The notes beneath the pieces are model-generated. The model searched no databases, was not told the origin of the DNA, and saw only the letters and a program-made list of their open reading frames with translations. DNA of 64,000 nt from Saprospiraceae bacterium (GTDB taxonomy: Bacteria; Bacteroidota; Bacteroidia; Chitinophagales; Saprospiraceae), in the NCBI GenBank assembly GCA_020628095.1, contig JAHDFP010000002.1, positions 62,001 to 126,000 of the forward strand, in the 5' to 3' direction. Position 1 is the first letter of the stretch. Every line of letters starts with the position of its first letter. The translations under genes and the position numbers were made by a program. This document shows positions 167-53,791 of this stretch, piece by piece.

Positions 167-3100
167 ATGAGGAACTTGGTTACTCACATTTTTGACATGT
201 TCAAATCTCAGGTTATGACACCTGTGATTTTGTGTTGTTTCATGATGCATGTCTTACCGCAATCATCCTTGGCACAAACTACATTGGGCTTAGGAGATGT
301 TGCTATTACAGGATATCAATCTGATAATCCTGATAAGATTTCATTTGTTCTTCTGACCTGCGTAGAAAGCGGAACGGAAATTCACTTTACGGATTTCGGG
401 TGGTTATCCACTGGTGGATTTAGGATTGCTGGTTCAGGCACGACTAAGGAGGGTGTTCTTACCTGGACATCCGATACGGACTTATCCTGTGGAGCAGTGA
501 TAACAATGCTGCCAGGATCTAACGAGGTCAATAGTGGAACGATATCTAGTGGGTCTCTCTGGCCTAATAGTATATCATTAGAAGTAGCTGGTGATCAGGT
601 ATTTGTGTTTCAGGGTTCCTTGGCCAGTCCTACTCTTTTGACTGGGATACAAATGAATGGAGCGTGGGATGCAGATGCAGTAGATAGAATGACCTCTGCC
701 CAGCCAAGTGCCTTCACAGATGGAGTTAACTCTGTTTCCTTTACACCAGAAAGAATGAACGCAGTATTCAACGGATGTCCTCTTTCTGGAGAATTAGTCG
801 GTAGTGCTGCCATGATATCCCAGACTATATATACAGCGAGCAGTTGGATTCTATCTAACTCTAGAACACTAACAATTCCTGGTGATTGCACATATAACCC
901 ATGTCCAGGAGAGCCTGTCGTTAGTATATCGGAAGCGTGTGATGCTGTCCAGATCGGTAGATGTCAATATAGTCTTACGCCAGCTAATGCAGGTGATATA
1001 ATATCTCCAAGTGTGGTTATGGATCAGGTGGATGGATATACAGGAGGTATGCAAACTTTTTCTGTAACAGGGACAGATGGTTGTACACAATCTTATGATG
1101 TCGTTATCCCTGCATGTCACTGTACGGTATTCGTACCAGTTGTAGGGTCATTTGTTATTTCTGATCCATGTAGTTGTAACGAAGATCAGACAAGTAATGG
1201 TTCTAACGATGGGACATTTTCTGAGACCGTGAGTATAAGCGGACAGAGCGGTTACGATGTAGTAGGTAATTTTTCTACACCATCGGGCATGCCTAATTTA
1301 ATGTTTACAGAAAGTCCAGCAGGTTCAGGTAATTATTCGGCGACATTTAATCATAGAGACGGCCAAGGATATGTGATGTGTCTGGAGGATATGATGGGTA
1401 ATGCACTGACTGATGCTGATGGAGTACAACTTTGTATAAGTAATGTCTGCGAGTATCCAGAAATCACAGAACCAGATTTCGGTGGACCTCTCTGTGCAGA
1501 AGATAATCCTATCGATTTATCCGCTTTGATTACAATGCCTGTAGAAGGTGGAACGATAACAACTGTGGTTAATGGTGTTACAACTAACATTTTTGATCCT
1601 TCGGCATTAGGACCAGGTATGCATCATGTGATGTGGATGTTTGATGGCAACTTCGTGGATAATATGAATGGGACTGTAAGCGACCCTGCTTTTCCAGGTT
1701 GTATGTCTTTTTACGAAACTACAGTAGAGATTCACCCATGTGATTGTTCTTGCGAGTTGCAGTGTATAGGACAAGTTAACGTATCACTAGACGAAAACTG
1801 TTCTGCCGAGATTAATCCTGCTATGGGTGGCGTAGGTATTACGCCTGCTTGTAACAACTATTATTCTATACAGGTCTATGACGATCATGGCGAAATAATT
1901 GCTGGCAACTTAGTAGACTACTCTCATGTAGATCAAGAACTAACTTATAAAATTACAGAACCAGTATGTGGCAATAAGTGCTGGGGATCATTAAATGTGG
2001 AATACAAGTTACCACCTCGGATCGAATGTCCTGATGACATTACGATACCATGTAACGCATTACAGTTTCTATGTTATCCTCCAGCGACGGCAGGTTGTTT
2101 AGATTTTTCTATCAACTTAGTCGATGAGGTCGTTGATAAATTAACTTGCGATACGAATTATACGGCGATAATAACAAGAACATATAAGGCTTGTGACGAT
2201 TTAGGCAATTGCTCTTCTTGTACGCATAAGATTACATTGGAAAGAATAGACTTTGATAATATTAAATTTCCAGAATCCTTTGTAGCGGATGACGCAATAT
2301 CATGCACGGATACTATTATTCAGTTTGACGAAAATGGATTTCCGTTACCTTGGTTATTTGATCCGCTTACAGGATCAGGTTCTGGAGTGCCTATCTTATG
2401 CACTAACCCTTTCACTGGCAGTGGATCTAGTGGTGATCCATATCCGATTTGCCTTAATGGTGGTGATACCCGATTCGACGGGATGGGACATTTTCCTTTG
2501 ACTGGTTCTGGATCTATGATGATACCTCTTATACCATCTGATATTACAGGTGTAGAAACCCCAGTCTTAAAAGCATGCAATACTCTTGTAACATATACGG
2601 ATGTAGAATTACCTGTGCCAGGTGATTGCAAGAGAAAAATTGTGCGTACATGGGAAGTAAGAGAGTGGTGGTGCTCTGATGAGATTACATTAGGCAATGT
2701 ACAGCTGATAGAGATAAGAGATGACGAAGCACCAGAAATAATCTGTCCTAGTGATTACACGATATCTACAGATTATGACTGCGCGGGTAGGGTGGACTTA
2801 CCTAGGGCGTATGTTGCGGATCAGTGCAGTGATGAGGTGACGGTAGCCATTGACTATGGTACTGGATTGATACAGGGTAATGGTGGTTTTGTCGATTTAG
2901 AAAAAGGCGTTAATCATATTACATATATCGCCATGGATGGTTGCCATAATCAGAGATCCTGTCATTTTTATGTAACGGTGGTAGATGATACGGAGCCTGT
3001 TGCGGTATGTGAGACTAATAAGGTGGTATCCTTGAGTCAGTCATCGACGACCGTTGTATTTGCGGAACCATTTGATAATGGTAGTTGGGATGAGTGTGCA

Positions 3101-5695
3101 TTGGATCGTTTTGAGGTACGTAGAATGGTTAATGACTACTGCGAACCGTCAGACACTATTTTTGGACCATCGGTTAATTTCTGTTGTACGGATGTCGGTA
3201 CAGATGATGTGATGGTGGTAATGCGTGCTTATGATCATGCGGGCAATTATAATGATTGTATGGTCAGAGTAGAAGTACAAGACAAATCTGTACCAGCCTT
3301 ATACTGTCCATCAGATACAACGGTGTTATGTATTGAGCCTTACGATATGAATAATTTGGCATTGACATTTGGACACCCCGATATGGAAGGGGCATGTACT
3401 GGGCCTAATCTAGAGGAGGTCATCTTAGATGATCTAGATCAATGCGGATCAGGTAACATTATCAGAAAATACCAGATAAGAAACGCGAGTGGAGATGTGG
3501 TAAGCTCTTGTATTCAGGAAATATACATTATCAATGATAGACCATTATATGGACATGATATTGTATGGCCTCTTAACTACCAGACTAATTCGACTTGTAG
3601 CATACAAGACCTTGACCCAGAAAACTTAGATCATCCTTATGCTTATCCGACTTTCTCTGGTGATGATCACTGTAACTTAATAGGTTATGATTATACAGAT
3701 AAGGTTTTCGAAAGCACAGGTACATTTGGATCATGTACACATGTAGAGAGAACTTGGAAAGTTATTAATTGGTGTGGTGATGTGGATAATAATGGTCAGT
3801 TTGACCAGTGGACAATTCCTACACCTCAGATAATAGAAATAATCAATGATATAAATCCGACAATCAATGAGACAGGACCATTGTCATTTAGCTCTCAGAG
3901 TATAGATTGCCTTTCTGGACCGATCAATTTTACAATGTCAGGTAATGATGATTGTAATGATCTATTCTGGAAATATGATATCGTCGATGCTCAAGGTCTG
4001 ACAGTATATCATGGAGAAACCAATGTCGTAGACACTAAGCTCAGAGTAGGAGAGTACATTATAAGATGGACTCTATCTGATGGATGTGCCAATTTTGATT
4101 ATTACGAGCAACCAGTATCGGTTATTAATACCAAGTTACCGACGCCTGTATGTCTCAATGGATTAAGTGCCAATCTTGTACTTATGGATACAGATAGTGA
4201 CGGCACTCCAGATAATGAAATGGTCGAGCTATGGGCTAGCGATTTTAACGGAGGAAGCTCTCATAGTTGTGGTAACCCTGTAGTCTTGTCATTCACTCAG
4301 GATACAACTGATAAAGTAAGAATATATAATTGTGATCATATAGGTCTTAACCCTGTGACAATATGGGTGACAGATGTTATCACTGGATTGCAAGATTACT
4401 GCTCTACATTCATAGATGTACAAGATAATAATGGAGATAACTTCTGTCCTTCTATACCTAAGAACAGAGTAGATGTAAGAGGAGAAATCCATACAGAGGA
4501 TGTCAGAATGGTTGAGAAAGTAGAGGTATCATTAATAAAAGATGTTCTACTAGATACGACACTGACGGACGGATTATATGCGTTTGATGATATGCCACCG
4601 GGTGGATCTTATCAGGTGACTCCAGCGAAAGATATCGATTATCTTAACGGTGTCAGTACATTAGATTTGATCTATATACAAAAACATATTTTGGGTATAG
4701 AACTATTAGATAGTCCTTACAAAATGATTGCTGCTGATGCTGATAATAGTGAGAGTATAACAGCGATAGACCTTATAGAGCTAAGAAAGTTGATACTCGG
4801 AATATATGACGAACTACCAGCAAACACCAGTTGGAGGTTTGTGGACGAAGCACATACTTTTGTTGATCCTAATAACCCATGGCTCTATGATATTCCAGAG
4901 AAGTATGCGATCACTAATCTGGGGTCGGATATGGATATAGATTTCATAGGAGTCAAAATAGGAGATGTCAATAATAGTGTTATTGCGCAGGCACAAGAAG
5001 AGATAGCCATCGAGAAGAGAAGTTCGGTTTCATTGGATCTAATCATAGAAGGAGTGGAGATGAGTGATAATGATATTGTAACGATTCCTGTGTATGCTGA
5101 TAACTATCAAGACATCTATGGTTGGCAGACGACATTAGATTATGATGCTGGTCAATTAGAAATTATTGATATAGTATCAGGAAGTCTCGCTATGACTAAC
5201 GGAATAAACTATAATCTGCTGAATAATGCTGAAGGTAATGTGGTAATGAGTTACTCTAACAAGTCTCCGGAAACATTCGAAGCAAATGATGTATTATTTG
5301 AGTTAGTTGTTAAGGCGAAAGTCGATTTAGCTAATGACTGGGCAATAGATTTAAGTTCTGATCAAATCAGATCGGAAGCCTATACAGAGAATTACGAAAT
5401 TATAGGAATGCAATCTGCTTCCGAGCAAGTTGTCTCTATTTCTGATATCGTCAATGTCAAACCAAATCCTTGGATGCAAAGGGCAAACATTTCCTTTAAT
5501 ATGTCTAAGGGCGGAGATGCGCAGTTTGATTTTTATGATGTAGATGGAAAGCTATTGCATTCTGTTAATGGTGTATATAGTTCAGGTCAGAATATGATAG
5601 AAGTTACAAGATCAGACATTGGTATCAAAGGCGTTATATATATCAAACTAACGACCGAAGATGCAATCACAGAATATAAAATGATTGTTTTGTAG
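167..5695 (+). CDS. Secreted multidomain surface protein with HYR, dockerin-like, cohesin-like and T9SS sorting domains
   Basis: 1842 aa. Residues 1-37 are a signal peptide (hydrophobic core ILCCFMMHVL, cleavage near SLAQ); Met11 is an alternative start. Residues ~38-245 resemble the unnamed beta-sandwich seen at the N-terminus of many exported Bacteroidota proteins (GDVAITGYQSDNPDKISF, later GDQVFVFQG). Cys-rich Ig-like segments follow. From residue 529 (nt 1751) begins the ~1300-aa block shared with the three genes downstream: Cys-paired Ig/HYR-like modules, a linker with three TGSGS motifs (nt ~2365-2520), an HYR-like module (APEIICPSDYTIS), a dockerin-like pair (NGVSTLDLIYIQKHILG and DADNSESITAIDLIELRKL, residues ~1492-1545), a cohesin-like beta-sandwich (~1619-1757) and a T9SS type A tail (~1760-1842, VNVKPNPW...IYIKL). 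It is probably exported through T9SS and displayed on the surface. The binding partner is unknown. No catalytic domain was recognised. Confidence 0.85.
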   Translation: MRNLVTHIFDMFKSQVMTPVILCCFMMHVLPQSSLAQTTLGLGDVAITGYQSDNPDKISFVLLTCVESGTEIHFTDFGWLSTGGFRIAGSGTTKEGVLTWTSDTDLSCGAVITMLPGSNEVNSGTISSGSLWPNSISLEVAGDQVFVFQGSLASPTLLTGIQMNGAWDADAVDRMTSAQPSAFTDGVNSVSFTPERMNAVFNGCPLSGELVGSAAMISQTIYTASSWILSNSRTLTIPGDCTYNPCPGEPVVSISEACDAVQIGRCQYSLTPANAGDIISPSVVMDQVDGYTGGMQTFSVTGTDGCTQSYDVVIPACHCTVFVPVVGSFVISDPCSCNEDQTSNGSNDGTFSETVSISGQSGYDVVGNFSTPSGMPNLMFTESPAGSGNYSATFNHRDGQGYVMCLEDMMGNALTDADGVQLCISNVCEYPEITEPDFGGPLCAEDNPIDLSALITMPVEGGTITTVVNGVTTNIFDPSALGPGMHHVMWMFDGNFVDNMNGTVSDPAFPGCMSFYETTVEIHPCDCSCELQCIGQVNVSLDENCSAEINPAMGGVGITPACNNYYSIQVYDDHGEIIAGNLVDYSHVDQELTYKITEPVCGNKCWGSLNVEYKLPPRIECPDDITIPCNALQFLCYPPATAGCLDFSINLVDEVVDKLTCDTNYTAIITRTYKACDDLGNCSSCTHKITLERIDFDNIKFPESFVADDAISCTDTIIQFDENGFPLPWLFDPLTGSGSGVPILCTNPFTGSGSSGDPYPICLNGGDTRFDGMGHFPLTGSGSMMIPLIPSDITGVETPVLKACNTLVTYTDVELPVPGDCKRKIVRTWEVREWWCSDEITLGNVQLIEIRDDEAPEIICPSDYTISTDYDCAGRVDLPRAYVADQCSDEVTVAIDYGTGLIQGNGGFVDLEKGVNHITYIAMDGCHNQRSCHFYVTVVDDTEPVAVCETNKVVSLSQSSTTVVFAEPFDNGSWDECALDRFEVRRMVNDYCEPSDTIFGPSVNFCCTDVGTDDVMVVMRAYDHAGNYNDCMVRVEVQDKSVPALYCPSDTTVLCIEPYDMNNLALTFGHPDMEGACTGPNLEEVILDDLDQCGSGNIIRKYQIRNASGDVVSSCIQEIYIINDRPLYGHDIVWPLNYQTNSTCSIQDLDPENLDHPYAYPTFSGDDHCNLIGYDYTDKVFESTGTFGSCTHVERTWKVINWCGDVDNNGQFDQWTIPTPQIIEIINDINPTINETGPLSFSSQSIDCLSGPINFTMSGNDDCNDLFWKYDIVDAQGLTVYHGETNVVDTKLRVGEYIIRWTLSDGCANFDYYEQPVSVINTKLPTPVCLNGLSANLVLMDTDSDGTPDNEMVELWASDFNGGSSHSCGNPVVLSFTQDTTDKVRIYNCDHIGLNPVTIWVTDVITGLQDYCSTFIDVQDNNGDNFCPSIPKNRVDVRGEIHTEDVRMVEKVEVSLIKDVLLDTTLTDGLYAFDDMPPGGSYQVTPAKDIDYLNGVSTLDLIYIQKHILGIELLDSPYKMIAADADNSESITAIDLIELRKLILGIYDELPANTSWRFVDEAHTFVDPNNPWLYDIPEKYAITNLGSDMDIDFIGVKIGDVNNSVIAQAQEEIAIEKRSSVSLDLIIEGVEMSDNDIVTIPVYADNYQDIYGWQTTLDYDAGQLEIIDIVSGSLAMTNGINYNLLNNAEGNVVMSYSNKSPETFEANDVLFELVVKAKVDLANDWAIDLSSDQIRSEAYTENYEIIGMQSASEQVVSISDIVNVKPNPWMQRANISFNMSKGGDAQFDFYDVDGKLLHSVNGVYSSGQNMIEVTRSDIGIKGVIYIKLTTEDAITEYKMIVL

Positions 5696-5721
5696 CAATT
5701 AAGTTTTCAATATTTCTAAGA

Positions 5722-5752
5722 AAGCTCAAGGTTTTTCCTTGGGCTTTTTTTT
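5722..5752 (+). terminator. Rho-independent terminator of the first surface-protein gene
   Basis: A 10-bp stem (AAGCTCAAGG, nt 5722-5731, with CCTTGGGCTT, nt 5737-5746, one G-U pair) closes a five-T loop and runs into eight Ts. It begins 26 nt after the stop codon, so the first giant gene is probably transcribed separately from the second. Confidence 0.85.
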
Positions 5753-5849
5753 ATGCTCGTAATTATCTTCTGATTCCTTATCTAGGTGCCAATATAGCAG
5801 TCAATGCCTTGGTTAGTAGGTGGTTATATATAGAGAAATGGAAATGTAT

Positions 5850-5877
5850 AACATATTATGATTTTTAATAATATGTT
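5850..5877 (+). promoter_or_regulatory. AT-rich inverted repeat in the leader of the second surface-protein gene
   Basis: A perfect 10-bp inverted repeat, AACATATTAT (5850-5859) and ATAATATGTT (5868-5877), has an 8-nt loop and is followed by a short T run. A nearly identical element (25 of 28 positions) lies before the fourth giant gene at 49594-49621, and a related 12-bp version lies before the third. Conservation in otherwise diverged leaders suggests a regulator-binding site or RNA structure. It is not obviously the terminator, because a stronger one lies at 5722-5752. Confidence 0.5.
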
Positions 5878-5891
5878 TTTAACTTTAGAGC

Positions 5892-6010
5892 GCAGAAAAG
5901 AATCTGCATATTAAATAATAGAATAAGTTAAGGGTGATATTCTCATCTAATTAGCTTACCCTTTTTGTTTTTTAAAGTCACCTCCCACACCGATTATCCC
6001 TTATAACAGT
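5892..6010 (+). promoter_or_regulatory. Conserved leader block, second surface-protein gene
   Basis: A small hairpin (GCAGA, loop AAAGAA, TCTGC; 5892-5907) is followed by a block at 5919-6010 whose landmarks recur in the same order before the third giant gene (28803-28893): TAGAATAAGT, AAGGGT, CTTACCC, AAAGTCAC, CCGATT and AACAGT. AAGGGT and ACCCTT (5930-5962) can pair ahead of a T-rich run (TTTTTGTTTTTT), which would look like an attenuator. Apart from this block and the inverted repeat, I see no gene in the 465-bp interval 5696-6160. Confidence 0.4.
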
Positions 6011-6160
6011 ATGTCCCTAGGACATATATCCTTTTGAGACAGTACTCCCATCTGTCCGATTTAGTCTTAGCGTATATAGGTAAGTTACCTCTGCGGCTAG
6101 ATGCACTCCTGTATGTATGATAAAAAGACCAGCGATTCTATAGTGTAACAAAGCTATAGG

Positions 6161-28552: not shown

Positions 28553-28600
28553 TCATATAAAATGATAATTAGACATAAAGATAGACCACTGTTTTTGCAG

Positions 28601-28629: not shown

Positions 28630-28746
28630 AGGCAATTTATAGAAGTCGAATGAAGAATTTTTTGTGGTGAGCAGAGTTTCGATTAAGAATTTTTAAATTA
28701 TGAATCTTCTTTTATTAAATACAATTTTTCTATATATGTTAAAAAA

Positions 28747-28774: not shown

Positions 28775-28802
28775 TGCGTATATTTGCTACATCCTAAATA
28801 GG

Positions 28803-28893: not shown

Positions 28894-29054
28894 TACACTT
28901 TTATTACTAAGAGCCATTGGGTCGAACCGCCTATTGGTATCCTTAATTGCTGAAAACATTTGTTGTCGATACATTATCGACCACTATTTGTATTTGCACC
29001 TACCTGAGATTATTTAATGATCATCTTACTGATGTTAAAAATTAGTGTGCTAAC

Positions 29055-47000: not shown

Positions 47001-49406
47001 CTATCATGTCCAGAAAATGATACGATAGATTGTCGAGTGGCTTATGATATTAATAATCTCTCATTGACTTTTGGTGGACCAGATATCAATGATAACTGTC
47101 CTACACATGCCAATATAGAAGAGGACATCGTAAGTGATGTCAACCAATGTGGAATAGGTCAGATAATCAGAACGTTAAGAGTGCTGGGTGATGATGATCA
47201 GACTGTATTACGTAAGTGTACTCAGTTGATTACCATAATCAACGAAGCACCTTTCGTAGCGAGTAATATTCAGTGGCCATTAGATTATGAGACTAATGGA
47301 GCATGCTTATTATCAGATCTTGATCCAGAAGACTTGAGCGAAATCAGTAGCGTATACGGATTCCCAATCTTTACATCAGGGGACGATCAGTGTAGTCTCT
47401 TAGGATGGGATTATGAGGATAAAGTCTACACCAGCAACCAAGGTAGTGGCGAATGTGCGCACATAGAGCGTTACTGGACAGTCATAGATTGGTGTGGAGT
47501 AGATAGTGATGGCAATTTTGCAAGATACTCACAAGGGAGACCGCAGGTTATCAAACTGACTAATAACGTAAGTCCACAGATAGTTGCTCAGGGTCCTGTC
47601 GAGATTGTATCTGGCAATGTAGATTGCGAGAGTGGGTTGATAGAGTTTACTCGAGAAGCCACGGATGATTGTATGAATGCTCTTAACTGGAGATATACTA
47701 TAAGAAGCACTGCGGGTGTCGTTGTAGGTAGTGGTAATAGTGCTACATTATTGGATACTCTTGTTGCTGGAGATTACACGGTAGAGTGGGTTGTAGAAGA
47801 TCTGTGTGGAAACTTTGATTCTGATAATCAAGTCATCCGTGTGATAAACAATAAGGCACCGAGTCCGGTCTGTCTCAATGGATTGAGCGCAAGCCTTACT
47901 GGTGAAGATACTGATGGAGATGGCGCAATAGACACAGAGACATTCGAGCTATGGGCTGTGGATATAGACGGTGGAAGTTTCCATACTTGTGATAATGATA
48001 TCGTACTAAGTTTCTCTTCTGATACAACGGATCGTGTAAGATTATATGATTGCAGTAATATAGGTATCCAAACTGTTGAGTTATGGGTAACTGACGTTGT
48101 CACAGGCGTACAAGATTTCTGTTCTACATTCATTGATATACAGGACGAAGGCTTATGTCCTGATGCCAATATGGTATCTGTTATCGGAGAAGTATACACA
48201 GAGAGATTGGAAATGGTCGGTGATGTCGAGGTGAAATTGGGCGATACGGGTATAGAAGACATGACAGATGATGCTGGTTCGTACGCCTTTGAAAATATGC
48301 CGATGGGTGGTAGTTATGAGATAGTGCCTAAGAAAGATGTAGACTACCTCAATGGTGTTAGTACGCTAGATTTGATATACATACAGAAACATATTCTGGG
48401 TATTGATTTACTGGATAGTGGTTATCAGATGATTGCAGCAGATGCCAATAGTAGCGAAGACATTACTGCTCTGGACTTGATAGAATTGAGGAAATTAATC
48501 TTGGGTGTTTATGATGATTTACCAGAGAACGAGAGTTGGAGATTTGTTGATAAAGCGCATGACTTTGTCCAGGAAAATAATCCGTGGGTACAGGATGTAC
48601 CAGAGACGTATAACATCTTAGGGTTAGATCAAGACATGGATATTGATTTCATAGGTGTCAAGGTCGGTGATGTCAATGGTAGTGTCACTCTTAATGCGAC
48701 AGATAGTAAGATAGAAAAGCGTAGTGCTTCTAGATTATTACTGAATGTCAAAGAAGTAGAAATCAAAGATGGATTATACGCTGCTGAAATCAGATCATCA
48801 GGATACACAGATATCAATGGATGGCAAGGAACTCTAGAGTTTGATAGTAATATAATGGAGATAGTGGGTCTATCAGGTCAGGCGCTTCCTATCGAAGAGT
48901 CACATTATAACACCAATAGTCAGTCAGAAGCTTGGATGGCTATAAGTTATCATGAGAAAACTGGAAAGAGTAGGACTGTAAAATCTGGAGATGTATTACT
49001 AGAGATACTCTATAGAAAATCGAGTAATGCGGCTGAGACATCAGTACAGGATTTATTCAAGTTGAGTTCTCTCAAGGCAAGCAAAGAAGCCTATAATGCC
49101 AATAATGAGGTGATGGATGTCGAGTTAAGAGGAGCAAAGGAAGATGGAATAGAAATCGTCAATGTCAGTCCGAATCCGTGGATAGATCAGACGACTATCG
49201 AGTTCTACATCCCAGAAAGTGGAGAAGGCAGATGGGAGTTCTATGATGTCAATGGTAGAACATTACATACTATGAAGAATAGCTATACTGCTGGATATCA
49301 CAGTATGGAAGTGAAACGTGTGGATATACAGGCTTCTGGTATTGTGTACGTGAAGCTGATCACGGATAGCTCCACGACAGAATATAAGATGATGTTGATC
49401 AACTAA
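29055..49406 (+). CDS. Giant surface protein with 20 SdrD_B-like repeats, DUF11, dockerin-like, cohesin-like and T9SS domains
   Basis: 6783 aa in one frame. The N-terminus has a hydrophobic export segment (VLISGLMVCTIILSSFSFL) without a clear AxA/AxQ cleavage site, followed by a predicted helical stretch (~36-85). Residues ~95-2096 are Cys-rich beta-domains distantly related to the previous giant protein (both have a KATTDCD/RATTNCD...SGSR segment followed by IDGxDP). Residues 2097-2234 are a DUF11 domain ending in an acidic stretch. Residues 2235-~5142 are twenty SdrD_B-like modules. Two more DUF11 domains follow (~5145-5463), then the shared C-terminal block from 5464: HYR-like modules, a linker with two TGSGS motifs, a dockerin-like pair (~6430-6490), a cohesin-like domain (~6561-6690) and a T9SS type A tail (~6701-6783). 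The architecture suggests a long, Ca-stiffened surface stalk with an attachment or interaction base. The very acidic repeats make Ca binding likely but unproven. Confidence 0.85.
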   Translation: MKRHVLISGLMVCTIILSSFSFLDLFNSKKENTSKNETQILIDKANQLYHQFSVASCEEEKASWSAYQDAKSELITYVKSFSKSSSSSVEVAMAAPMMNGIKCPEIQVIELTDVPGFSQTDLLMKCGEADTLSFLIFIEEPGSISGTQMSLAFDQGMEYAGFELTHYGDPTQISNVNPSTSNPKFLLEGITEGIFVAYIGTRINCEADITALDYQIDAQFNFIYEDTLGQFISCRQDTEIDKSYDDFIKEPDLAMIGRNLTLNTLGQQRCVQIDMVQGGLPPTYWDSLFFQVCNIDLTGILQFNEYRIWNNDTGWSGYMPASDFTYDATTQNLSLGIGSEFMGPDGRTTSNHQVSIQLCYQADSCPDIPSQNITYKASYGCAGSICKEARKDQVISVAPTARIKPIATAELSEIASVCGAPAEIDVSVFSGLDNAGATLVFPQDSALGLYTDVKFRFEACGASSMEITEVVFSEASLGQEHFEWNTDDIVVDLSANTVDIDGPGGIIDADGDGFFDDLAGGTGVDFTILLDFICPDSVDDPSELICNNLDCSFAQIIVEGKRDCGQAFKEEPAVGPFDILYGATYAAADSSLFHSATNRRIFMGTVGRNDNCNDRPVGRKTVEFKYVFESNDNVNGCANADNYMQILFDGSPLIVYDVQLNPADDITVSNDATGATTTIPSSSATWTDISQTSRMLRIPLGDATVGDTVRYKYTLEADTAQCAPWQYMTGTHQVFEDCNDCDCTILKACGSINFFSDPADCDCECEWRDSIVVLKRLNLGYSDKDRTMIADEADVAAAGDLDKFMAGDTMFIKTAHIPRTETVLRDAWYWHWEFGLFNGTLNGWDTRRLELDMDALNSELIGLYFKKQGSTTETFIDFSLLAQCQGGNNPDRGGLLLDFGTTAYDGLVTNMYQENVYNANSTFEPADNTRLRIRFYNPESREACANGAAKPGWMKSDPADCISELIDFYGIEPNDTIFSKIKFPLIKNPIRAADDYTQPLTNATQAWAWSDIQVLDENDADCVIGVLECRSPMPYSTTCPDSIFAKTEIEYTACGGSVEHMFIVQQPAPTGWFSREWRPYYELQDITIPIYSPLAFCGNLRGVLTDGTEFPLTVKAVDNHECVPFNGEEYCTVTSGNFGTITFNPYEDGYEGLAVGKTNLPGCIDTLRIRYDLCKICEVDINTAGYRLEYDYKFPYEPPFFDVYRCNQNNTTLAGIDIVACEDLTNWARYYQEYNLDTLVYKNDRFSEDAISTPPTTNFPTLTTEISPDCGVNVISSDAPGTSEEINCIRVCADTDGTETHMGVVTSFAISNSVQLVNVYDNSTPPNVLPTTLINSGSTTNTYAISLGELDPGECIDIQIGTTLLFCPEPPEMPDICITTTSGCLDPELLALLAPNTSPCNNSGICYNYLVGKTGIQGTFLNPSADSYPLCDTVPFAILIKNTNETDLTDIVVNMTIPNGMTLVTTSFEASYPNCGEDFDADGVVMGDFYSVAPPEINGNMLSYPEDEVWSTDIHTNGLPNLIDNLDNCNSYAVIRFRATTNCDEFVSGSRPNLEILAKDPCGPDPLQSQDIGEQIVIDGADPEDFAQILMTAKPAEAYCDSEVPEFTVTGQNISEVAAGDSVQICLTFPSNLSYHSGSAYYAIPAGLSTGTETITMIGDDTQVCFTGVDNLPVGGAFTLKFNADFDIDSDCGDYKIGVDIKDLVADLTCTPGPPDDCDVFVQTSVNPDFTVSLLAPMEIEELSLYKTCTDPLDPCVLKYSVLLVNHGPDYNTDIVLDLHDDILGDGVFDYYDPILATMSHPVTLQSGDTLLLEGTFTVDAINACPSLLNVTFASECVCNATNMAFSTIEPEWIADLPPTIFLCPGEELGVETCGDFEITYEPVDNMNERVVGDSIYLSPVDPSALTSIKVTGMVGECEYEVIKFMRGFVDFDMDLLVDEGCENQDLLLELNIPAEYREGTSVRWTPTTDLDDPNRFDPIFNGAAGNYCYTVDFTLSETCSKSEQVCFEIFANGFMLIDGDEDFCYGYAPGTLTASGGYDYYEWYRLDGGFEILQASTPTNSWNGPTEGGDYIVKGFNNDELCPAISGPFTIEAKECVDLELTKNIVNVPDPVSPGSTITYELEVCNINDSSIGMIYDATGVVISDQMPGAVTYVTHTQTSGNYSPNNNEWEISLIENGTCDTLWIDVIIDQVGTITNTAQITESDKEDIDSEENNDDGDQSEDDEDGEEIEVACESISGEIFYDNDGDGCQADDEGLVMEAINVSIFECGDVPGTDPAVAVTQTTDGMYEFGLDSDDPGADVCLDPGTEYFVVFDLPNSTNQALEDYTFSQMEATGACATDGNGDDVDGTTGQSDCHNPTDDDAGDGDADNNIDAGITPPCYSMSGEIFYDDNDNGCQDMGENLVDVAVNVSVYECGDVPGVDQPAATTTISDGMYEFGPDSDDPNADVCLKNDKEYFIVFDLPNADGEDLEGYTFSSMDPDPMCAVTGESDNVDPMTGASGCYDPDDDDDSDGDDDEDVDAGIVPPCESVGGEIFYDNNDNGCQDAGESLVTETVNVFIFECGDNPATDTPVASTVTNDGMYEFGPDSDDPGADVCLESGRPYFIYFDIPNDSGEALDGYEFSSMEGDKACAALGEDDNVDPATGESGCFDPNDSDPKGGDDDNHVDAGIIPPCHSLSGEIFYDGNDNGCQDAMEMLVMETIGVSLFECGDNPAVDPPVASTTVNDGMYEFSETSDDDGADVCLEAGKEYFVVFDIPNGPGQSLDGYSFSSMTTSGTCATDGNGDDVDASTGASGCYDPDNSDDGDGDGDEHVDGGIVPPCEQISGEIFYDNNNNGCQDDGEDLVMEDIEVSLYECGDTPGVDAPAASTTVNDGMYAFGETSDDAGANICLEAGTEYFVVFDIPSAVGQVLEDHTFSTATPDPACVADGDASDVDSMTGASDCVDPDNDEDDGDEDVDAGVVPPCETLSGEIFYDNNDNGCQDMGESLVDDASIEVSIYECGDTPGVDQPLASTTVSDGMYEFGEDSDDAGADICLMAGTEYFVVFDIPNDSREALEDYSFSNNDASGACATSGESDNVDPMTGASGCYDPNDDDDSDGDDDENVDAGITSPCYEVSGEIFYDNDNNGCEDTGESLVMEPINVSIFECGADPASDAPVASTTVTDGMYEFGADSDDPDADVCLENDKEYFVVFDIPNGEDEELEGYTFSSGTASAACENTGESSDVDSMSGTSDCVDPDNDDSTDGDDDENVDAGIVPPCESLAGEIFYDGNDNGCQDNMEALVMETIGVTLYECGDTPGVDPPVASTTVSDGMYEFGEDSDDPDADVCLEAGTEYFVVFDIPSDIGEALAGYEFSSQAASGACATDGNGDDVDPNTGASGCYDPDDDDSGDGEGDDSIDAGIVPPCEQISGEIFYDNNENGCQDPGESLVMEDIDVTLYECGDTPGVDAPVASTTVNDGMYAFGETSDDAGADVCLEAGTDYFVVFDFPSNDGAPLEDHTFTSGTADPACIADGESSDVDSVTGESDCVDPDNDDGDGDEDVDAGIVPPCESISGEIFYDENENGCQDMGEGLVMEDINVTLYECGETPGVDPPVAATTVSDGMYTFGEGSDDMGADVCLDAGAQYFVVFDIPNDVGEALQDYQFSTGTASPSCSTSGNSDDVNPSTGASSCVDPDNDDDDDGDSDNNVDAGITPPCYEMAGEIFYDDNGNGCEDADEDLVTGTVMVSLYECGSTPGVDAPVSITSVVDGMYEFGPDSDDPSADVCLEQDKQYFVVFDIPNGNGESLDGYMFSMGMADASCTQAGESMDVNPVTGASDCFDPDDNDDEDGDDDQNVDAGITPECQSLGGEIFVDTDGNGCQDSGEGLLMSDVNVTLYECGDDPAVDPPVATTTVSDGMYEFGEDSDDDGADVCLEAGKEYFVVFDIPNGPGEALEEHTFSMSTADPSCVIAGESDDVNPSTGASGCYDPSDMDDGDGDDDGDIDAGVVPPCESISGEIFYDNNANGCQDIGEDLVTEIIDIQLYECGDTPGVDAPVSSTTTNDGRYEFGEDSDDPGADVCLMPGTEYFVVFDIPNGSGEALDGYSFTDGMASASCEALGESSDVDPMTGTSSCYDPNDDDDGDGDSDENVDAGITPPCESISGEIFYDYNMNGCQDDSESLVMEEVAVTLYECGDTPGVDQPVSSTTVNNGEYEFGVDSDDPDADVCLEAGQEYFVVFDLPNDEGESLEGFSFTSGVATGACATSGDSDNVDPSTGASGCVDPDDDDDSDGDDDENVDAGITPPCENIAGEIFYDGNENGCQDGNESLVMEVINVTLYECGATPGVDMPVASTSVSDGMYEFGEDSDDPGAAVCLEAGKEYFVVFDVPMGDGEVLDGYEFTQGVASAGCMNAGMSSDVDPTTGMSDCVDPDEDDGDGDDDVDAGIKPPCEQIAGEIFYDDNNNGCQDDEEPLVDDQAIEVVLYQCGDVPGLDQPAAFTTVTDGQYVFGVDSDDPGADICLDAGDEYFVMFHIPNGPGEPLEDYYFSENIASPSCLFSGEGDNIDPNTGMSGCHDPSNDDDEDGDADENIDAGIMHPCEILAGEIYYDNNNDGCQDADEGLVMEAINVTLYQCGDDPASATPVASTTTTDGTYQFGDQYSLDYTDDPCLNPRFEYFVAFDFDNGAGDALEDYYYSDGDSASCPMGGNADDTDRYTGETSCYGPDNDDDDMHIDMGITPCEEISGEVFVDWNADGCQGGPMEGPASGVNVYIFSCNESNPNPDNAIASDITDDNGEYAFGPEEEGTAEACLHPDSSYYVTFQVPNATGEQHDDFYLTHGDGASCAGGEDADDVSQGDGRSDCLDPDDDDDDDDVDAGITPCEEMGGEVFFDMNGDGCQDSMTDGPVTGVTAYIYSCNEANPTPENALASDVTDANGEYDFGPEEEGDANVCLHPDSSYYVVYDLPNNDGEALDNYGLTEGDGSTCTGGDNGNDADPITDRSECYDPDDDDDDSHVNTGLIPCEEISGEVFYDDNADGCQEEGEEEGVEGMNVYVFECGTTDLSPGNAVASDVTDENGEYKFGPAEEGSAKVCLDADKEYFVLFDLPNGDNEAFEGFEFTDGDGATCAGAENADDVDPLTGTSSCVDPEGDDDDNDIDAGIKRPVDIALRKVTMTEGPYQYGQEVIFGIEIINQGSLDLYNVKVNDFVSCGFKYLSSNDGTWSYDPFSEVATTTYAGPLEGQSSDTIFITMELVPCSDDDAYTNTAEVESMEDEDGEDVTDDDVDSTGDDDPTNDGDMDDDNVDGDGQNGEDEDDSDFEDLEIFDLALIKELITPPMFEEGDTIEFRHTIVNQGNVTAANIQIVDYLPSGYTFVPSLNSGWSSATAPTYSYNVSGTLTPGATAYVSIFVTVNYVAQLQENYTNYGEISDATDEDGNERTDADSTPDNNPDNDGTPVDDALNDRGDEDDHDPAGIDLLEEFIPPCSVSCDLPCRDQINLSLGMDCTGAVTPAMVLVGLDPGCNTATGLLEITLKDEHGNELPDSIVGIEYLGQNLTYEFTNLDPNCNNTCWGNVLVEYKFLPQIDCPGIDTLSCGALDILGLPRATGSGCMDIPYTIRLVDEVREQLDCDSLVTQKVTRTYRAEDDFGNFSECEHEIYVRRVDLSGLMFPDNATLSCADTRFSFYENNGCSIPIPWILTGSGSSCPASGHGYGVPVVCDQNDPSGLVCPLTGSGSAVPLIPLTGASTIDTTCNIQVIEGTTQAICNTMVSYTDVVLPGTPCHKKVMRTWEVREWWCSGEFTMGSVQMIEIKDDQAPDIVCPADMTVTTDDDCAGSIDLPAITAQDNCGDNGIIVSVDYPTGFLYSNGGAAELEVGSNQIKYIVSDSCYNDTMCVMNVMVRDLTEPVAICEQHTVVSLTTTDYSYILAESLDDGSWDECGLDRFEVRRMDTTCVSTDIEFSDKVAFCCSDAGSEVMVIFRAYDKGGNYNDCMVTVEVQDKQVPLLSCPENDTIDCRVAYDINNLSLTFGGPDINDNCPTHANIEEDIVSDVNQCGIGQIIRTLRVLGDDDQTVLRKCTQLITIINEAPFVASNIQWPLDYETNGACLLSDLDPEDLSEISSVYGFPIFTSGDDQCSLLGWDYEDKVYTSNQGSGECAHIERYWTVIDWCGVDSDGNFARYSQGRPQVIKLTNNVSPQIVAQGPVEIVSGNVDCESGLIEFTREATDDCMNALNWRYTIRSTAGVVVGSGNSATLLDTLVAGDYTVEWVVEDLCGNFDSDNQVIRVINNKAPSPVCLNGLSASLTGEDTDGDGAIDTETFELWAVDIDGGSFHTCDNDIVLSFSSDTTDRVRLYDCSNIGIQTVELWVTDVVTGVQDFCSTFIDIQDEGLCPDANMVSVIGEVYTERLEMVGDVEVKLGDTGIEDMTDDAGSYAFENMPMGGSYEIVPKKDVDYLNGVSTLDLIYIQKHILGIDLLDSGYQMIAADANSSEDITALDLIELRKLILGVYDDLPENESWRFVDKAHDFVQENNPWVQDVPETYNILGLDQDMDIDFIGVKVGDVNGSVTLNATDSKIEKRSASRLLLNVKEVEIKDGLYAAEIRSSGYTDINGWQGTLEFDSNIMEIVGLSGQALPIEESHYNTNSQSEAWMAISYHEKTGKSRTVKSGDVLLEILYRKSSNAAETSVQDLFKLSSLKASKEAYNANNEVMDVELRGAKEDGIEIVNVSPNPWIDQTTIEFYIPESGEGRWEFYDVNGRTLHTMKNSYTAGYHSMEVKRVDIQASGIVYVKLITDSSTTEYKMMLIN
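35757..44480 (+). repeat. Array of 20 SdrD_B-like modules
   Basis: Module starts are 35757, 36198, 36639, 37080, 37521, 37953, 38397, 38838, 39279, 39711, 40152, 40593, 41034, 41475, 41916, 42348, 42792, 43215, 43638 and 44061. Most spacings are exactly 441 bp, with some of 432 or 444 bp. The last three modules are a 423-bp subtype. Each module reads CES.SGEIFYDNN.NGCQD, YECGD, DGMYEFG.DSDDPGADVCL, EYFVVFDIPN, an Asp-rich DPDDDDD stretch and VDAGI. Six cysteines per module are conserved. Confidence 0.9.
37080..40592 (+). repeat. Four-module higher-order duplication inside the SdrD_B-like array
   Basis: Modules 4-5-6-7 (37080-38837, ~1758 bp) and 8-9-10-11 (38838-40592, ~1755 bp) correspond one to one. 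In each set the first has FYDGNDNGCQ and METIGV, the second begins CEQISGEIFYDNN, has MYAFGETSDDAGA and is the 432-bp short form, the third has NGCQDMGE and IPND, and the fourth begins CYE with NGCED. This indicates duplication of a four-module block. Confidence 0.65.
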
Positions 49407-49428
49407 TAAGGATCAACTTACGACAAGT

Positions 49429-49443
49429 AATTCGTTAGCACTA
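49429..49443 (+). repeat. 15-nt 3' untranslated motif, copy 1
   Basis: AATTCGTTAGCACTA lies between the stop codon of the third giant gene and its terminator. The identical 15 nt lies in the same place after the fourth giant gene (53792-53806). It is either a relic of the duplication that made the two gene ends or a retained 3' RNA element. Confidence 0.6.
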
Positions 49444-49453
49444 AATATTTCGG

Positions 49454-49485
49454 ACTCCGGCAGTGATACTGTCGGAGTTTTTTTT
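49454..49485 (+). terminator. Rho-independent terminator of the third surface-protein gene
   Basis: An 11-bp stem (ACTCCGGCAGT, 49454-49464; ACTGTCGGAGT, 49468-49478; one G-U) with a GAT loop is followed by eight Ts. It is the strongest terminator in the window. Confidence 0.9.
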
Positions 49486-49580
49486 ATTCCTTCGAGAAAA
49501 AAATAAATTCAGAAAACTCTCATTAGTTTCTTATCGCACAGGTCCTAACATATTAGAATGACACTTATATAAGGTTTCGT

Positions 49581-49655
49581 AATATGTTAATTTAACATAT
49601 TATGATTTTTTATAATATGAATTATCATAGATTTGTATTTCAGAACGAATTCTGA
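49581..49655 (+). promoter_or_regulatory. AT-rich inverted repeats and hairpin in the leader of the fourth surface-protein gene
   Basis: Two overlapping inverted repeats share one arm. AATATGTTAA/TTAACATATT (49581-49601) is a perfect 10-bp palindrome, and CATATTAT/ATAATATG (49596-49603, 49612-49619) is the counterpart of the element before the second giant gene. They cannot both fold. A third hairpin, TCAGAA-CGAA-TTCTGA (49640-49655), resembles the small hairpin at 5892-5907. The interval 49407-49770 otherwise holds only the terminator and the 15-nt motif. Confidence 0.5.
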
Positions 49656-49770
49656 CTACATTTCCATAGCCTACACACGTCCTTTTTTTGGAAGGAATTT
49701 ATTTCTTGAATTACAAATGTTTAATGTGATTTAGTACAGGAAGAATTAGTTAAGTGTAGATTAAGATAAG

Positions 49771-52700
49771 ATGAACAAAAACCGATTTTGGCCAATGTGG
49801 ATCTCCCAATCCATAGGTCAACACATTCTAAGAGCGACCGTGGTATGCATGGTCATAATGTCCGTGTCTGTAAGGATCGACGCGCAATGCTCAGTACAAT
49901 GCATAGATCAGATTAACGTCAGTCTAGATCAAAATTGTATGGCGACCATAACGCCACTTATGGTAGGAGCCACAAGTGACGCCCCAGCACCAAACCTTCA
50001 ACTTTCATTGACTTACAATGGAAATGCTGTAGCATCTAATCAAGTGGATCTGAGTCATGTCAATCAGATTTTGGGCTTTACCGTTACAGATTTGTCGTGT
50101 GGTAATTCTTGCTGGGGAAATATTACGGTAGAATACAAACTGGCACCGAGAATACAATGTCCGCCAAACGATACCTTGCCATGTGCAGCTATAGATGATC
50201 TACCTTTGCCGTCGGCAAGTGCTCAATGTGGTCAATCGAGTTTTGAAGTTTTTTTACTCAACGAAGAAAGAGTTGCGCTCGACTGTGATGATGATTATAC
50301 GCATATTGTAACACGGACCTATCGTGCCGTGGCAGATATAGGAGAACCAGTTGATTGTAGACAGACGATACACGTGGAGCGTCTAGAAATAGATTCCATC
50401 AGATTTCCTCAGAATCTTAGTGTCTCTTGTGACGACCCTAATCTTATATTCAACTCAGATGGTTTTCCGTACCCTTGGATATCGGATAATGTCATGACAG
50501 GATCTGGCTCTGTAGGAGTGCCGTATATATGCTTACCGTCACCACTGACAGGATCTGGATCGGGCTTGGGATTCCCACTGACAGGATCTGGGTCAGCTGG
50601 ATTTTTTCATCCACTGTGTGGTCCTGGCAATACTTTGATACCTATTGTGCCACAGTTTGATACGACAACAGTAATCGACACCTCTGGTCAAGTTATTATA
50701 GTAGATCCTCTAGATGCAAGCTATTGCAATGCCTCTATTACCTATACGGATGTTATTATGCCATCGGGTCCATGCGTAAGAAAAGCGGTGAGGACATGGG
50801 AAATAAGAGAGTGGTGGTGTTCTGGAGAAGAAACCAGAGTAGGTTTTCATACCATAGAGGTGAAAGATACAACACCTCCTAGTATTGTCTGTCCAGCAGA
50901 TTTTACAGTAAGTTCTTTAGATGATTGTTCGGTGTTGGTAGATTTTCCTTCTATATCTGCAACCGATCAGTGTAATAATGAGGTTATAGTCAGTATCGAT
51001 CCAGAAGGTTTTCCATTGATAAATTCTAATGGTGGAACTGGAATGCTAATTGCAGGTGATAACAAAGTGACATATAATGTGCGAGATGTGTGTCATAATC
51101 GGACATCATGCGATATGACGATTACAGTACAGGATCGTGTAGAACCCGTGGCAATCTGTGAGAGGGACATTGTGGTCTCGATATCCCCATCTGGCGGAAC
51201 ATTTTTGTCTGCTCAGTCATTGGATGATGGATCGTGGGATGGATGCGGTATAGATTCTATGCGTGTGCGTAGGATGACATCTGAGTGTAATAGTCAAGAT
51301 TTGGAATTTGGAGAAACGGTGGAGATATGCTGCATGGATGCAGGGTCGGAGATTATGGTCATATTCAGAGTGTATGATACGAGCGGTAATTTTAATGATT
51401 GTATGGTGCGCGTAACTGCTCAAGACAAAACCACTCCTTCTATCGCGTGTCCTGATAGAGATACCATAGATTGCAGGACGAGCTATGATATAAATAATCT
51501 AAGTTTGACATTCGGCGAAGCTACGGCGATGACGCAATGTGCCGCTAGTAATACGATACAAGAAGAAGTAACACCAGATCTAAACCAATGCGGTAAAGGC
51601 AAAATAGAACGTAAGTTTACCATGTTATCTCCAGATGGTATTGCTCTGGTTTCTTGCCAGCAGGTAATATGTATAGTGGATAGCATGTTGTTTGACGCCT
51701 CTATGATTATCTGGCCAGAAGACCTGGCTCTGACTACTGGCACATGTAGTATAGCAGATGCAGATCCAGAAGATCTAGGTATTCCTTACGGAACACCAAG
51801 GTTTACATCTGGTGATGATCAGTGTAGCTTACTTGGATTTAATTATACAGATCAGGTGCTGACTGGGTCTGGATCAGGAGGGTGTTTTATAATAGAGAGG
51901 ACTTGGAGTGTGATAAATTGGTGCGATCAGTCGCAAGGTGCATTCGCAAGATTTAATGATCCTAATGGACCACAGATTATTAGCTCTCAAGGTAACACAG
52001 CACCGACAATAAACGACTTATCGGATATTAATGTAGGCACTAATAATCTAGATTGTACGAGTGGATTATTATCCATAAGCCAATCGGCCTCAGATGATTG
52101 TAATACTAATAATCTCGTCTGGAGTTTTGTACTATTGGATTCCTCTTTGGATACAGTAAGTTCAGGTGCAACTGATAATTTTGAGACAATACTTTCTGTC
52201 GGTCAGTATGTCATCCATTGGCGTGTGTCTGATGGTTGTGGACATACGACGTTCGGAGCACAAAATGTCATTGTGAGTAATAATAAGCCACCGAGCCCTG
52301 TATGTCTGACTAATCTAGTCTTTCCTCTGGATGCTGCAAACGATGAGTTAGAACTATGGGCAAGCGACTTTGATGGTGGTAGTCAGCAAATATGCGGCAA
52401 CCCATTCTCCGTGAGTATAGGTCCAGATGTCAATAATACCACGATCACATACACTTGTGATAGTATAGGAATGAGAGAGGTAAGATTATATGTTACCGAT
52501 AATGTAACAGGCAATCAAGATTTCTGCGTTTCTAATATTACGATCACGGATGAAGGAAGCTGTCCTACTAACAGAGTCAGTATCCAAGGAGACATCGTTA
52601 CCGAAGAACTACAGAAAGTCTATGAGGTAGAAGTCCATCTAGACGATATATCTATGCAGATGACTGATGTAAGTGGTAATTATGCTTTTGGAGAAATGCC

Positions 52701-53790
52701 TATGGGTGGGTCATATACTATAAGACCTTATAAGAACGATGATTATCTCAATGGTGTAAGTACCCTAGACTTGGTGCTTATCCAAAAACATATTCTAGGA
52801 CAGGAAATATTTGATTCGCCTTATGATATAATTGCGTCAGATGTCAACAACGATGAGCAGATAACATCAGTCGATCTAGTAGAACTGAGAAAACTCATCT
52901 TGGGCATCTATGACGAACTGCCAGAAAATATGAGTTGGAGATTTGTAGATAAAGATTATCGTTTTGCTGATGAGAATAACCCTTGGTCCAGAGATATATC
53001 AGAAACATATAGCATCCTGCATCTAGATAGTGATATGGATATAGACTTTGTAGGAGTCAAGATAGGAGATGTTAACGGTAGTGTCGTCGCTAACCTGAAC
53101 GAAACACAGATAGATCAAAGGCAACACAGATGGCCAGTGGTCTTTGAGATGGAAGATATGAAGTTATCCGATGGTATCGAATATAGAATTCCAGTCTACG
53201 GAAAGAATTACGAACGTGTCACAGGTTTCCAAGGAACTATAAATTTTGATAATAGTCAAGTTGCCAGTTTGGCGATCGAAGATGGTAGTCTTCTTTTGGA
53301 TCAAGAAAACTATTATCTAGATGCAGACAGAGGAATCATGACTTTCAGCTATCATGGCAACGCAGTTGATATATCAGAGAATACAATCTTATTTGAGTTG
53401 GTGATAAAAACTGATAAAAGCGAGGAGTTGTCTGATTTGATTTCCCTAGGGTCTAACTTTACAAGATCAGAGGCTTATAGGGGACATCACGAAATTGTCA
53501 ATATTGAATTTGATTTCAAATCTCAAGGTGGTATAGACATCGTAAAAGCTAAGCCTAATCCTTGGAAAAATAATACAACGATAGAGTTTGAGATTGTTCA
53601 ACCAGGATTAGTTGAGTGGGAGATATATGATGCCAAGGGTCAGCTTGTCTTTAAGTCTGCTGGATCCTTTGAGTCAGGCAAGAATACAATACCTCTAAGA
53701 GAAAATGATCTAGGAGAGGCGGGAATGTATTTTATAAAAATGAAAACTGCGGAATATACAGATGATTATAAGATCATCTTATTAAAATAA
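49771..53790 (+). CDS. Minimal paralogue: signal peptide plus shared HYR/dockerin-like/cohesin-like/T9SS block
   Basis: 1339 aa. Residues 1-39 are a signal peptide with a long n-region (core ATVVCMVIMSVSV, cleavage near RIDAQ). The shared C-terminal block then starts at once at Cys40, so this protein is essentially that block without an N-terminal extension: Ig-like CSVQCIDQINVSLDQNC, an HYR-like pair, a linker with three TGSGS motifs (nt ~50495-50620), EIREWWCSGEE, HYR-like PPSIVCPADFTVS, DDGSWDGCGID, a dockerin-like pair (~990-1055: NGVSTLDLVLIQKHILG, DVNNDEQITSVDLVELRKL), a cohesin-like domain (~1119-1247) and a T9SS type A tail (~1257-1339, KAKPNPW...MYFIKMKT). A fourth TGSGS replaces unrelated residues just before the IERTWSVINWC motif. 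Its size makes it a candidate ancestor, partner or anchor for the giants; which of these is unknown. Confidence 0.85.
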   Translation: MNKNRFWPMWISQSIGQHILRATVVCMVIMSVSVRIDAQCSVQCIDQINVSLDQNCMATITPLMVGATSDAPAPNLQLSLTYNGNAVASNQVDLSHVNQILGFTVTDLSCGNSCWGNITVEYKLAPRIQCPPNDTLPCAAIDDLPLPSASAQCGQSSFEVFLLNEERVALDCDDDYTHIVTRTYRAVADIGEPVDCRQTIHVERLEIDSIRFPQNLSVSCDDPNLIFNSDGFPYPWISDNVMTGSGSVGVPYICLPSPLTGSGSGLGFPLTGSGSAGFFHPLCGPGNTLIPIVPQFDTTTVIDTSGQVIIVDPLDASYCNASITYTDVIMPSGPCVRKAVRTWEIREWWCSGEETRVGFHTIEVKDTTPPSIVCPADFTVSSLDDCSVLVDFPSISATDQCNNEVIVSIDPEGFPLINSNGGTGMLIAGDNKVTYNVRDVCHNRTSCDMTITVQDRVEPVAICERDIVVSISPSGGTFLSAQSLDDGSWDGCGIDSMRVRRMTSECNSQDLEFGETVEICCMDAGSEIMVIFRVYDTSGNFNDCMVRVTAQDKTTPSIACPDRDTIDCRTSYDINNLSLTFGEATAMTQCAASNTIQEEVTPDLNQCGKGKIERKFTMLSPDGIALVSCQQVICIVDSMLFDASMIIWPEDLALTTGTCSIADADPEDLGIPYGTPRFTSGDDQCSLLGFNYTDQVLTGSGSGGCFIIERTWSVINWCDQSQGAFARFNDPNGPQIISSQGNTAPTINDLSDINVGTNNLDCTSGLLSISQSASDDCNTNNLVWSFVLLDSSLDTVSSGATDNFETILSVGQYVIHWRVSDGCGHTTFGAQNVIVSNNKPPSPVCLTNLVFPLDAANDELELWASDFDGGSQQICGNPFSVSIGPDVNNTTITYTCDSIGMREVRLYVTDNVTGNQDFCVSNITITDEGSCPTNRVSIQGDIVTEELQKVYEVEVHLDDISMQMTDVSGNYAFGEMPMGGSYTIRPYKNDDYLNGVSTLDLVLIQKHILGQEIFDSPYDIIASDVNNDEQITSVDLVELRKLILGIYDELPENMSWRFVDKDYRFADENNPWSRDISETYSILHLDSDMDIDFVGVKIGDVNGSVVANLNETQIDQRQHRWPVVFEMEDMKLSDGIEYRIPVYGKNYERVTGFQGTINFDNSQVASLAIEDGSLLLDQENYYLDADRGIMTFSYHGNAVDISENTILFELVIKTDKSEELSDLISLGSNFTRSEAYRGHHEIVNIEFDFKSQGGIDIVKAKPNPWKNNTTIEFEIVQPGLVEWEIYDAKGQLVFKSAGSFESGKNTIPLRENDLGEAGMYFIKMKTAEYTDDYKIILLK

Positions 53791-53791
53791 A

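Follow-up and report, generated by a model that had tools for sequence, protein, structure and literature searches.

The stretch of DNA analysed here (the window, 64,000 nucleotides (nt) in length) covers positions 62001-126000 of contig C5 in the genome of an environmental bacterium of the Saprospiraceae (G000; 98.7% complete), and carries four large open reading frames (ORFs), A to D, arranged in tandem on the forward strand (Table 1). The four products share one C-terminal base, referred to below as the chassis or block: a cysteine-rich stalk of predicted β-domains and a tail containing a dockerin, a cohesin-like module and a C-terminal signal of the type IX secretion system (T9SS). What stands in front of this base differs from gene to gene, and Pfam and phmmer searches agree here with the preliminary description of this DNA, which had listed an unnamed domain, SprB modules, a 20-module SdrD_B array and nothing. 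A bears a head of 491 amino acids (aa) without Pfam match; B carries SprB repeats (PF13573, 3e-12 and 2e-21) followed by SdrD_B and DUF11 domains; C has a head of 2.1 thousand aa (kaa), then 20 consecutive SdrD_B modules of ~147 aa each and DUF11 domains; and D presents, by eye, a signal-peptide-like start alone. The module count in C derives from a phmmer search with one module as the query, which yielded 25 matches, five of them weak or partial, outside the row and excluded. Residues 2231-5140 of C contain 25.8% D+E and 0.7% K+R.

A shared stalk and tail

The last 1300-1320 aa of the four products align end to end with an identical order of modules, as expected from the four blocks of 1300-1319 aa first described, except that the block of C reaches 1320 aa (A 1314, B 1317, D 1300 aa). 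Identity to the block of A in the MAFFT alignment is 37% for B, 49% for C and 45% for D, and BLASTP recovers the entire block of A in one alignment with each of the others, at an E-value printed as 0.0. Given such one-piece alignments, the shared block is not due to chance. The stalk, comprising the first ~900 aa of the block, is all-β and, as we interpret the strand predictions together with the alignment, consists of about nine domains; its structural model has a predicted local distance difference test score (pLDDT) of 80.1 and a low predicted template-modelling score (pTM) of 0.36. HYR matches lie over the cut-off in B and just under it in A, C and D. Alignment of 21 stalks gives 87 invariant columns, 40 of them cysteine, with 43-49 cysteines per stalk, as opposed to the tail (last 410 aa), where 31 of 35 rows have none and the remaining four have one. 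The peptide TGSGS recurs with differing codons in the chassis of A, C and D (three, two and four times, respectively), mostly in a low-confidence loop at block residues of about 200-260 (between residues 203 and 273 in the stalk of A) and once at residue 698 of D, and among 28 other chassis rows examined, nine have one copy or more.

The tail runs from a CnaB/carboxypeptidase-regulatory-like module through a type I dockerin, an extension and a cohesin-like module to a T9SS type A signal. The shared order down to the T9SS tail had been recognized from the start, the dockerin and the cohesin being missing from that list. Among 35 tails, Pfam at E<=0.01 detects the dockerin in 35, the T9SS signal (PF18962) in 29, PF13620 in 22 and the cohesin (PF00963) in 18. 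The TIGR04183 model for the signal (cut-off 23 bits) is exceeded by C (25.5) and D (43.4), with A just below it (21.0), and B matches related T9SS models only. The sortase PorU is encoded in the same genome (1163 bits against a cut-off of 420). Matches to the type B signal (TIGR04131) number 32 in the genome at E<=0.001, none of them within the window.

The four blocks do form a family, yet not one of four members. About 16 genes of this genome carry the full tail according to the block profile, four in the window and the rest on contigs C3, C4, C5, C19, C21 and C31, and relatives carry the tail as well. On C20 (167457-167969), a chassis-like dockerin stretch with one internal stop may be decayed. 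A block match at E<=1e-100 was obtained in 20 of the 40 genomes searched: the genome itself, 12 of 13 from the same genus and 7 of 11 from the same family; the 15 genomes representing other families of the order gave none. Of 296 genomes sampled across the phylum, seven contained the tail at E<=1e-25, five of them from the family (this genome included) and two from the same class, and one listed genome of the family was without it; all 26 named loci of a separate scan belong to Saprospiraceae metagenome assemblies. With 16 candidates scored per genome in the 40-genome search and six in the phylum sample, copy numbers for the relatives are lower bounds. The stretches of relatives compared below were picked by hand from the search listings, not at random, and several of their contigs end inside genes.

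A conserved address and the histories of heads and chassis

Gene order in the relatives shows that the locus keeps its place in the genome and that its middle varies. The locus is flanked by an ATP-binding cassette (ABC) transporter upstream (57-71% identical) and by two OmpH/Skp-like proteins downstream (51-79%). The first gene after the transporter is headless in all nine readable relatives, its block starting at residue 27-35 (four of the nine have an insertion inside the block and one is cut at its far end), and the last gene before OmpH is headless in five of six, the exception being G010, with a head of at least 1319 aa. The genes in the middle vary in number and head.

The separate histories of head and base are most evident in A. 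Its head is 57% identical (240/422) to that of a protein encoded on C4 of the same genome, whereas the chassis of the two proteins share 24/86 residues in the first domain and 377/1175 in the remainder (28-32%). The chassis of a headless gene in G006, on the other hand, is about 57% identical to that of A (54/90 and 688/1211 for the same parts). The break is sharp and falls at the border between head and chassis, at residue 528 of A (nt about 1748 of the window). In a chassis tree of 32 rows, from which rows with a best domain below 840 bits were left out except for one outgroup, A pairs with the G006 gene, located at the same address, with support of 100/100. The pair recurs in separate trees of two stalk parts (99/99 and 100/100) and, more weakly, of the tail (86/72), three further rows having been left out of these three-part trees. 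A partial relative of the A head is found on another divergent chassis in G010. By these comparisons, head and base of A have separate histories and the head stems from another protein family; the direction of transfer would be from a C4-like gene to A.

In the case of C, relatives of the head occur on four different bases: the full chassis of C, a short chassis in G001 that lacks most of the stalk, a type B signal in G018 and, on C11 of the same genome, SdrD_B domains with a type A signal and no dockerin match. The latter is a 6204-aa ORF (L144; 374957-393568 of C11) whose head is distantly related to that of C and whose last 600 aa hold the SdrD_B domains and the signal. The head tree unites C with G001 (98/99) and the head in G006 with that in G022, from another genus (100/100). 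In the tail tree, the tail of C groups with two tails from G006 and one from G012 (98/96), and the G001 tail is placed elsewhere with weak support (81/77). This conflict probably points to exchange, although less decisively than the break in A, and replacement of the whole gene is a possible alternative to exchange of the head.

The comparison of block trees with N-terminal trees proposed in the preliminary description thus uncovers disagreement in A and C and provides no evidence either way for B and D, and the search of related genomes that it also proposed has returned the block with varied heads. Conserved full-length orthologues, which had been held to speak against swapping, exist in part: both D, whose chassis groups with those of two headless relatives (100/100), and the first-position gene have headless ones. 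In the three-part trees, the tails of G005_C188 and G013_C31 shift beside those of G005_C90 and G013_C102 (92/84), a hint of older tail exchange. The evidence supports head exchange as evolutionary history, that is, as a slow shuffling of domains superimposed on vertical descent.

The proposal of heads swapped onto a fixed base hence stands with regard to separate histories, through the breakpoint in A and the tree conflict in C, and finds no support as a quick cassette system. The longest DNA words shared by the four blocks measure 15-20 bp, with no identical word above 20 bp, and recent gene conversion among them is thereby ruled out. There are no inverted repeats of at least 20 bp (seed 14) in positions 1-55600 of the window, and no recombinase among the neighbouring genes scanned with Pfam, no search aimed at recombinases having been made; rapid cassette switching is not indicated. 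Transcription signals were also considered. The promoter motif of the Bacteroidota, TAnnTTTG, occurs ahead of the genes twice, against 1.57 times expected from shuffles, and Sigma-70-like sites in 49300-55700 are at shuffle level (22 found, 22.7 expected). Since terminator-like hairpins on the forward strand directly follow C and D but not A or B, independent transcription of the genes is not established.

Around the array, a DsbD gene and a separate DsbD_N protein lie a few genes upstream (L112 2830-6066; 52829-56065 of C5), and DsbD relatives precede the locus also in G005, G006, G010 and G013; a nearby DsbD suits a cysteine-rich product and proves nothing. A small ORF on C102 of G013 (L084 15618-16262), between the last chassis gene and OmpH, resembles by eye a transposase associated with repetitive extragenic palindromic (REP) sequences. 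Positions 55578-62684 of the window hold ordinary sugar and glycogen genes on the reverse strand (GH31 family, GlgC-like, starch/glycogen synthase and CBM48 α-amylase family).

Table 1. Features of the tandem locus, in window coordinates (nt).
Feature	Position	Strand	Description
Gene A	167..5695	+	1842 aa; signal-peptide-like start, 491-aa head, chassis, T9SS type A signal
A head	278..1747	+	491 aa; no Pfam family; 240/422 identical to head of C4 protein
A chassis	1748..5692	+	Breakpoint at start; closest to headless G006 gene
A stalk	1751..4453	+	About nine β-domains (predicted); 40 cysteines invariant across 21 aligned stalks
A tail	4454..5692	+	CnaB-like module, dockerin, extension, cohesin, T9SS signal
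Gene B	6161..28552	+	7463 aa; SprB repeats, SdrD_B/DUF11 domains, divergent chassis
B chassis	24599..28549	+	With HYR and dockerin matches
Gene C	29055..49406	+	6783 aa; 2.1-kaa head, 20 SdrD_B modules, DUF11 domains, chassis
SdrD_B array of C	35700..44387	+	20 modules, residues 2216-5111
C chassis	45444..49403	+	Shared block
Terminator-like hairpin	49452..49480	+	Directly 3' of C; pattern match only
Gene D	49771..53790	+	1339 aa; signal-peptide-like start and chassis, headless
D chassis	49888..53787	+	Shared block
Terminator-like hairpin	53817..53841	+	Directly 3' of D; pattern match only
OmpH/Skp-like protein	53989..54504	+	Downstream edge of locus
Second OmpH/Skp-like protein	54518..55027	+	After first OmpH/Skp-like protein

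Proposed docking and binding, and rival explanations

We propose that these genes encode T9SS-exported surface adhesins that are built on one base, with separate histories for heads and base, and that dock through their tails, a reading to which we assign a probability of roughly 0.62. Directed by a signal peptide and a type A signal, each protein would pass through Sec and then T9SS and emerge at the cell surface, with cleavage of the signal there and the base staying near the membrane. The disulfide-stapled stalk would set a constant minimum height for every head, with SprB or SdrD_B arrays lengthening the reach by differing amounts and headless members filling the same base layer. Paralogues would arise by tandem duplication and occasionally acquire a new N-terminal head at the border between head and first domain, and some divergent members would carry a lectin inside the stalk instead of a new head. 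The near-invariant dockerin would bind one shared kind of cohesin, borne by an adjacent chassis or by a separate cohesin protein, and would in this way link the adhesins to one another or fasten them to an anchor. The most likely role of the system as predicted is adhesion to surfaces, particles or other cells.

Docking is suggested by the uneven conservation of the tail, in which the dockerin is the most conserved module and the cohesin-like module the least. Ranked by mean pairwise identity, the modules run from the dockerin (66.5%) through the extension (50.8%), the CnaB-like module (40.5%) and the signal (29.3%) to the cohesin (26.1%). All 595 pairs of rows (not independent of one another) show higher identity in the dockerin than in the cohesin. 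Positions Q76, R/K77, H78, R111 and K112 of the dockerin are conserved and lie at what we take to be the cohesin contacts of cellulosomal dockerins. Searched against PDB sequences, the tail profile finds dockerins and cohesins of cellulosomes (best row 8zvk_A, 1.3e-7), and the model of the A tail (pLDDT 87.5, pTM 0.68) is matched by Foldseek to cohesin structures with target template-modelling scores (TM-scores) of 0.50-0.67. A frozen dockerin beside a fast-changing cohesin seems to fit one common partner and not private pairing within the chain; it seems to fit a purely structural dockerin as well. Ten cohesin matches are found in the genome. A candidate for the dockerin partner lies on C4 between two chassis genes (38739-42689; L105 6740-10687) and combines a cohesin with a SprB repeat and a type B T9SS signal; a PorP/SprF-family gene follows it. 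On C26 (L115 4351-9582), a possible multi-cohesin scaffoldin of 1744 aa carries three matches to cohesin, two of which pass the cut-off, together with a weak dockerin and a type A signal.

Putative binding modules are also found within the stalk. Two of the 12 tail genes located outside the window in this genome, on C19 and C3, contain a C-type lectin over the cut-off in a divergent chassis, as an insert at block position about 455 (L103 residues 508-595, ORF 3935-8302, reverse strand; L108 residues 483-570, ORF 6821-12841, reverse strand). Six chassis of relatives that have an insert close to this position were scanned as well; the lectin is over the cut-off in L046, L053 and L054 and below it in L048, and L037 and L040, from the genus of the window, have no Pfam match in the stalk insert. 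A P-domain precedes one C4 chassis. Variable modules can apparently sit within the stalk as well as at its end, and the predicted lectins speak for binding rather than catalysis.

Several observations weigh against this reading. Pfam scans gave no lectin match in the four chassis of the window, and among its four genes only A has a Pfam cohesin. Cohesin matches are weak in general, being restricted to 18 of 35 tails at E<=0.01 and to 4 of the about 16 tails of this genome, and the Foldseek list for the A tail model includes many unrelated Ig-like folds, with query TM-scores of at most 0.26. Were the dockerin to bind the cohesin of its own chain, a cohesin that diverges beside a frozen dockerin would be odd. 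With regard to the trees, only 7 of the 33 inner branches of the tail tree are starred and support is modest, the conflict in C rests on contigs that end inside genes, with the head and tails of G006 on different contigs, and B forms a long branch of unsure placement in the chassis tree.

Plain vertical descent with repeated head loss, in which the ancestor of each chassis lineage was headed and most relatives lost the head, could account for headless genes as reduced forms, and some pairs of head and chassis were indeed inherited together (G005/G013/G010, heads 46-49% identical; G001/G009, 56%). In the case of A, however, the headless sister and the nine headless first-position relatives entail about three losses against one gain by our count on the chassis tree. 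A single gain is the simpler history, and loss leaves unexplained that the head of A is closest to a head on a far more divergent chassis; we consider this explanation unlikely. A role as SprB-like gliding-motility adhesins, suggested by the SprB repeats of B and by 14 matches to the PorP/SprF family in the genome, 12 of which pass the cut-off, is weakened by the type A nature of the tails and by the location of all type B signal matches outside the window. The type B signal on the C-head relative in G018 qualifies this argument, and gliding remains in our view quite improbable as the function.

Two further systems combine some of the same elements. Aureispira belongs to the Saprospiraceae, and the genes might be taken to encode components of grappling hooks for ixotrophic predation, as in that genus; fragments of the Aureispira protein GhpA rank 2nd, 3rd, 10th and 42nd in the Foldseek list for the stalk model. 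PMC11205867 describes the hook protein as T9SS-secreted and ixotrophy as using the type VI secretion system (T6SS). The TM-scores of 0.11-0.22 and root mean square deviations of 40-105 Å denote generic tandem β-domains only, though, and at the sequence level neither the stalk profile nor the fronts of B and C match any PDB entry at E<=0.01 (the head of A being outside this search). GhpA is absent from the tail-profile matches at E<=0.1, and the T6SS sheath family VipB, the one family searched, is unmatched in the 98.7% complete genome, all of which makes a role in hooks very unlikely. A cellulosome-like complex, in which chassis cohesins gather dockerin-bearing enzymes, would make use of both modules of the tail, but each of the 19 matches to the dockerin in the genome (E<=0.01; 17 of them above the cut-off) overlaps a block-profile match. 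No catalytic Pfam family was detected on the 16 tail genes at E<=0.001 (four in the window and 12 others, one of them cut by a contig end) or on the C26 dockerin protein at E<=0.01, the short dockerin ORFs on C9 and C20 lying outside the scan. An enzyme complex of this kind is thus hardly credible.

Modular T9SS adhesins, SprB repeats and SdrD_B repeats are already known, and the proposed adhesins can be placed among several described systems. They share with T9SS type A cargo the C-terminal signal and the presence of PorU in the genome, and differ in being giant, in lacking a Pfam enzyme family and in having a dockerin/cohesin-like base. Recognition of type A signals has been attributed to PorV (PMC12618676). 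SprB repeats and very large size relate B alone to the SprB-type gliding adhesins of Flavobacterium, which have a type B instead of a type A signal; the stalk common to paralogues is a further difference. Both modules of the cohesin/dockerin systems (PF00963, PF00404; Acetivibrio ScaB, C. thermocellum CipA) are recognizable here, and the CnaB-like module ahead of the dockerin recalls the X-dockerin unit of the cohesin-X-dockerin arrangement in CipA. In the proteins described here, by contrast, both modules lie in one chain, no dockerin-bearing enzyme is seen, and the dockerin is nearly frozen while the cohesin diverges, often below the Pfam cut-off. Like Aureispira GhpA, these are large β-domain proteins with T9SS secretion (predicted here from the signal), although the resemblance is one of generic fold and not of sequence. 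As for fibrillar adhesins of the CshA/B type, PMC10952558 describes shuffling of binding domains among multi-domain surface proteins. The present genes differ in forming a locus-bound tandem array with one base and a T9SS signal. No description of this base was found among the titles and opening lines of abstracts in the open-access literature searched, subscription papers being outside its scope.

A bolder version of the adhesin reading holds that the lock of the cellulosome has been reused for adhesin assembly: the dockerin on every chassis would bind a shared cohesin, on neighbours or on separate anchors, with headed, headless and lectin-bearing proteins of unequal reach joined in one mixed surface layer whose heads are renewable by N-terminal shuffling; we put this forward tentatively, as possible but doubtful. 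The locus illustrates, at a single position open to comparison between species, how giant adhesins acquire new tips without giving up the base. Should the dockerin and the cohesin indeed link these proteins, a lock known from cellulose digestion would have a second use, that of building the cell surface.

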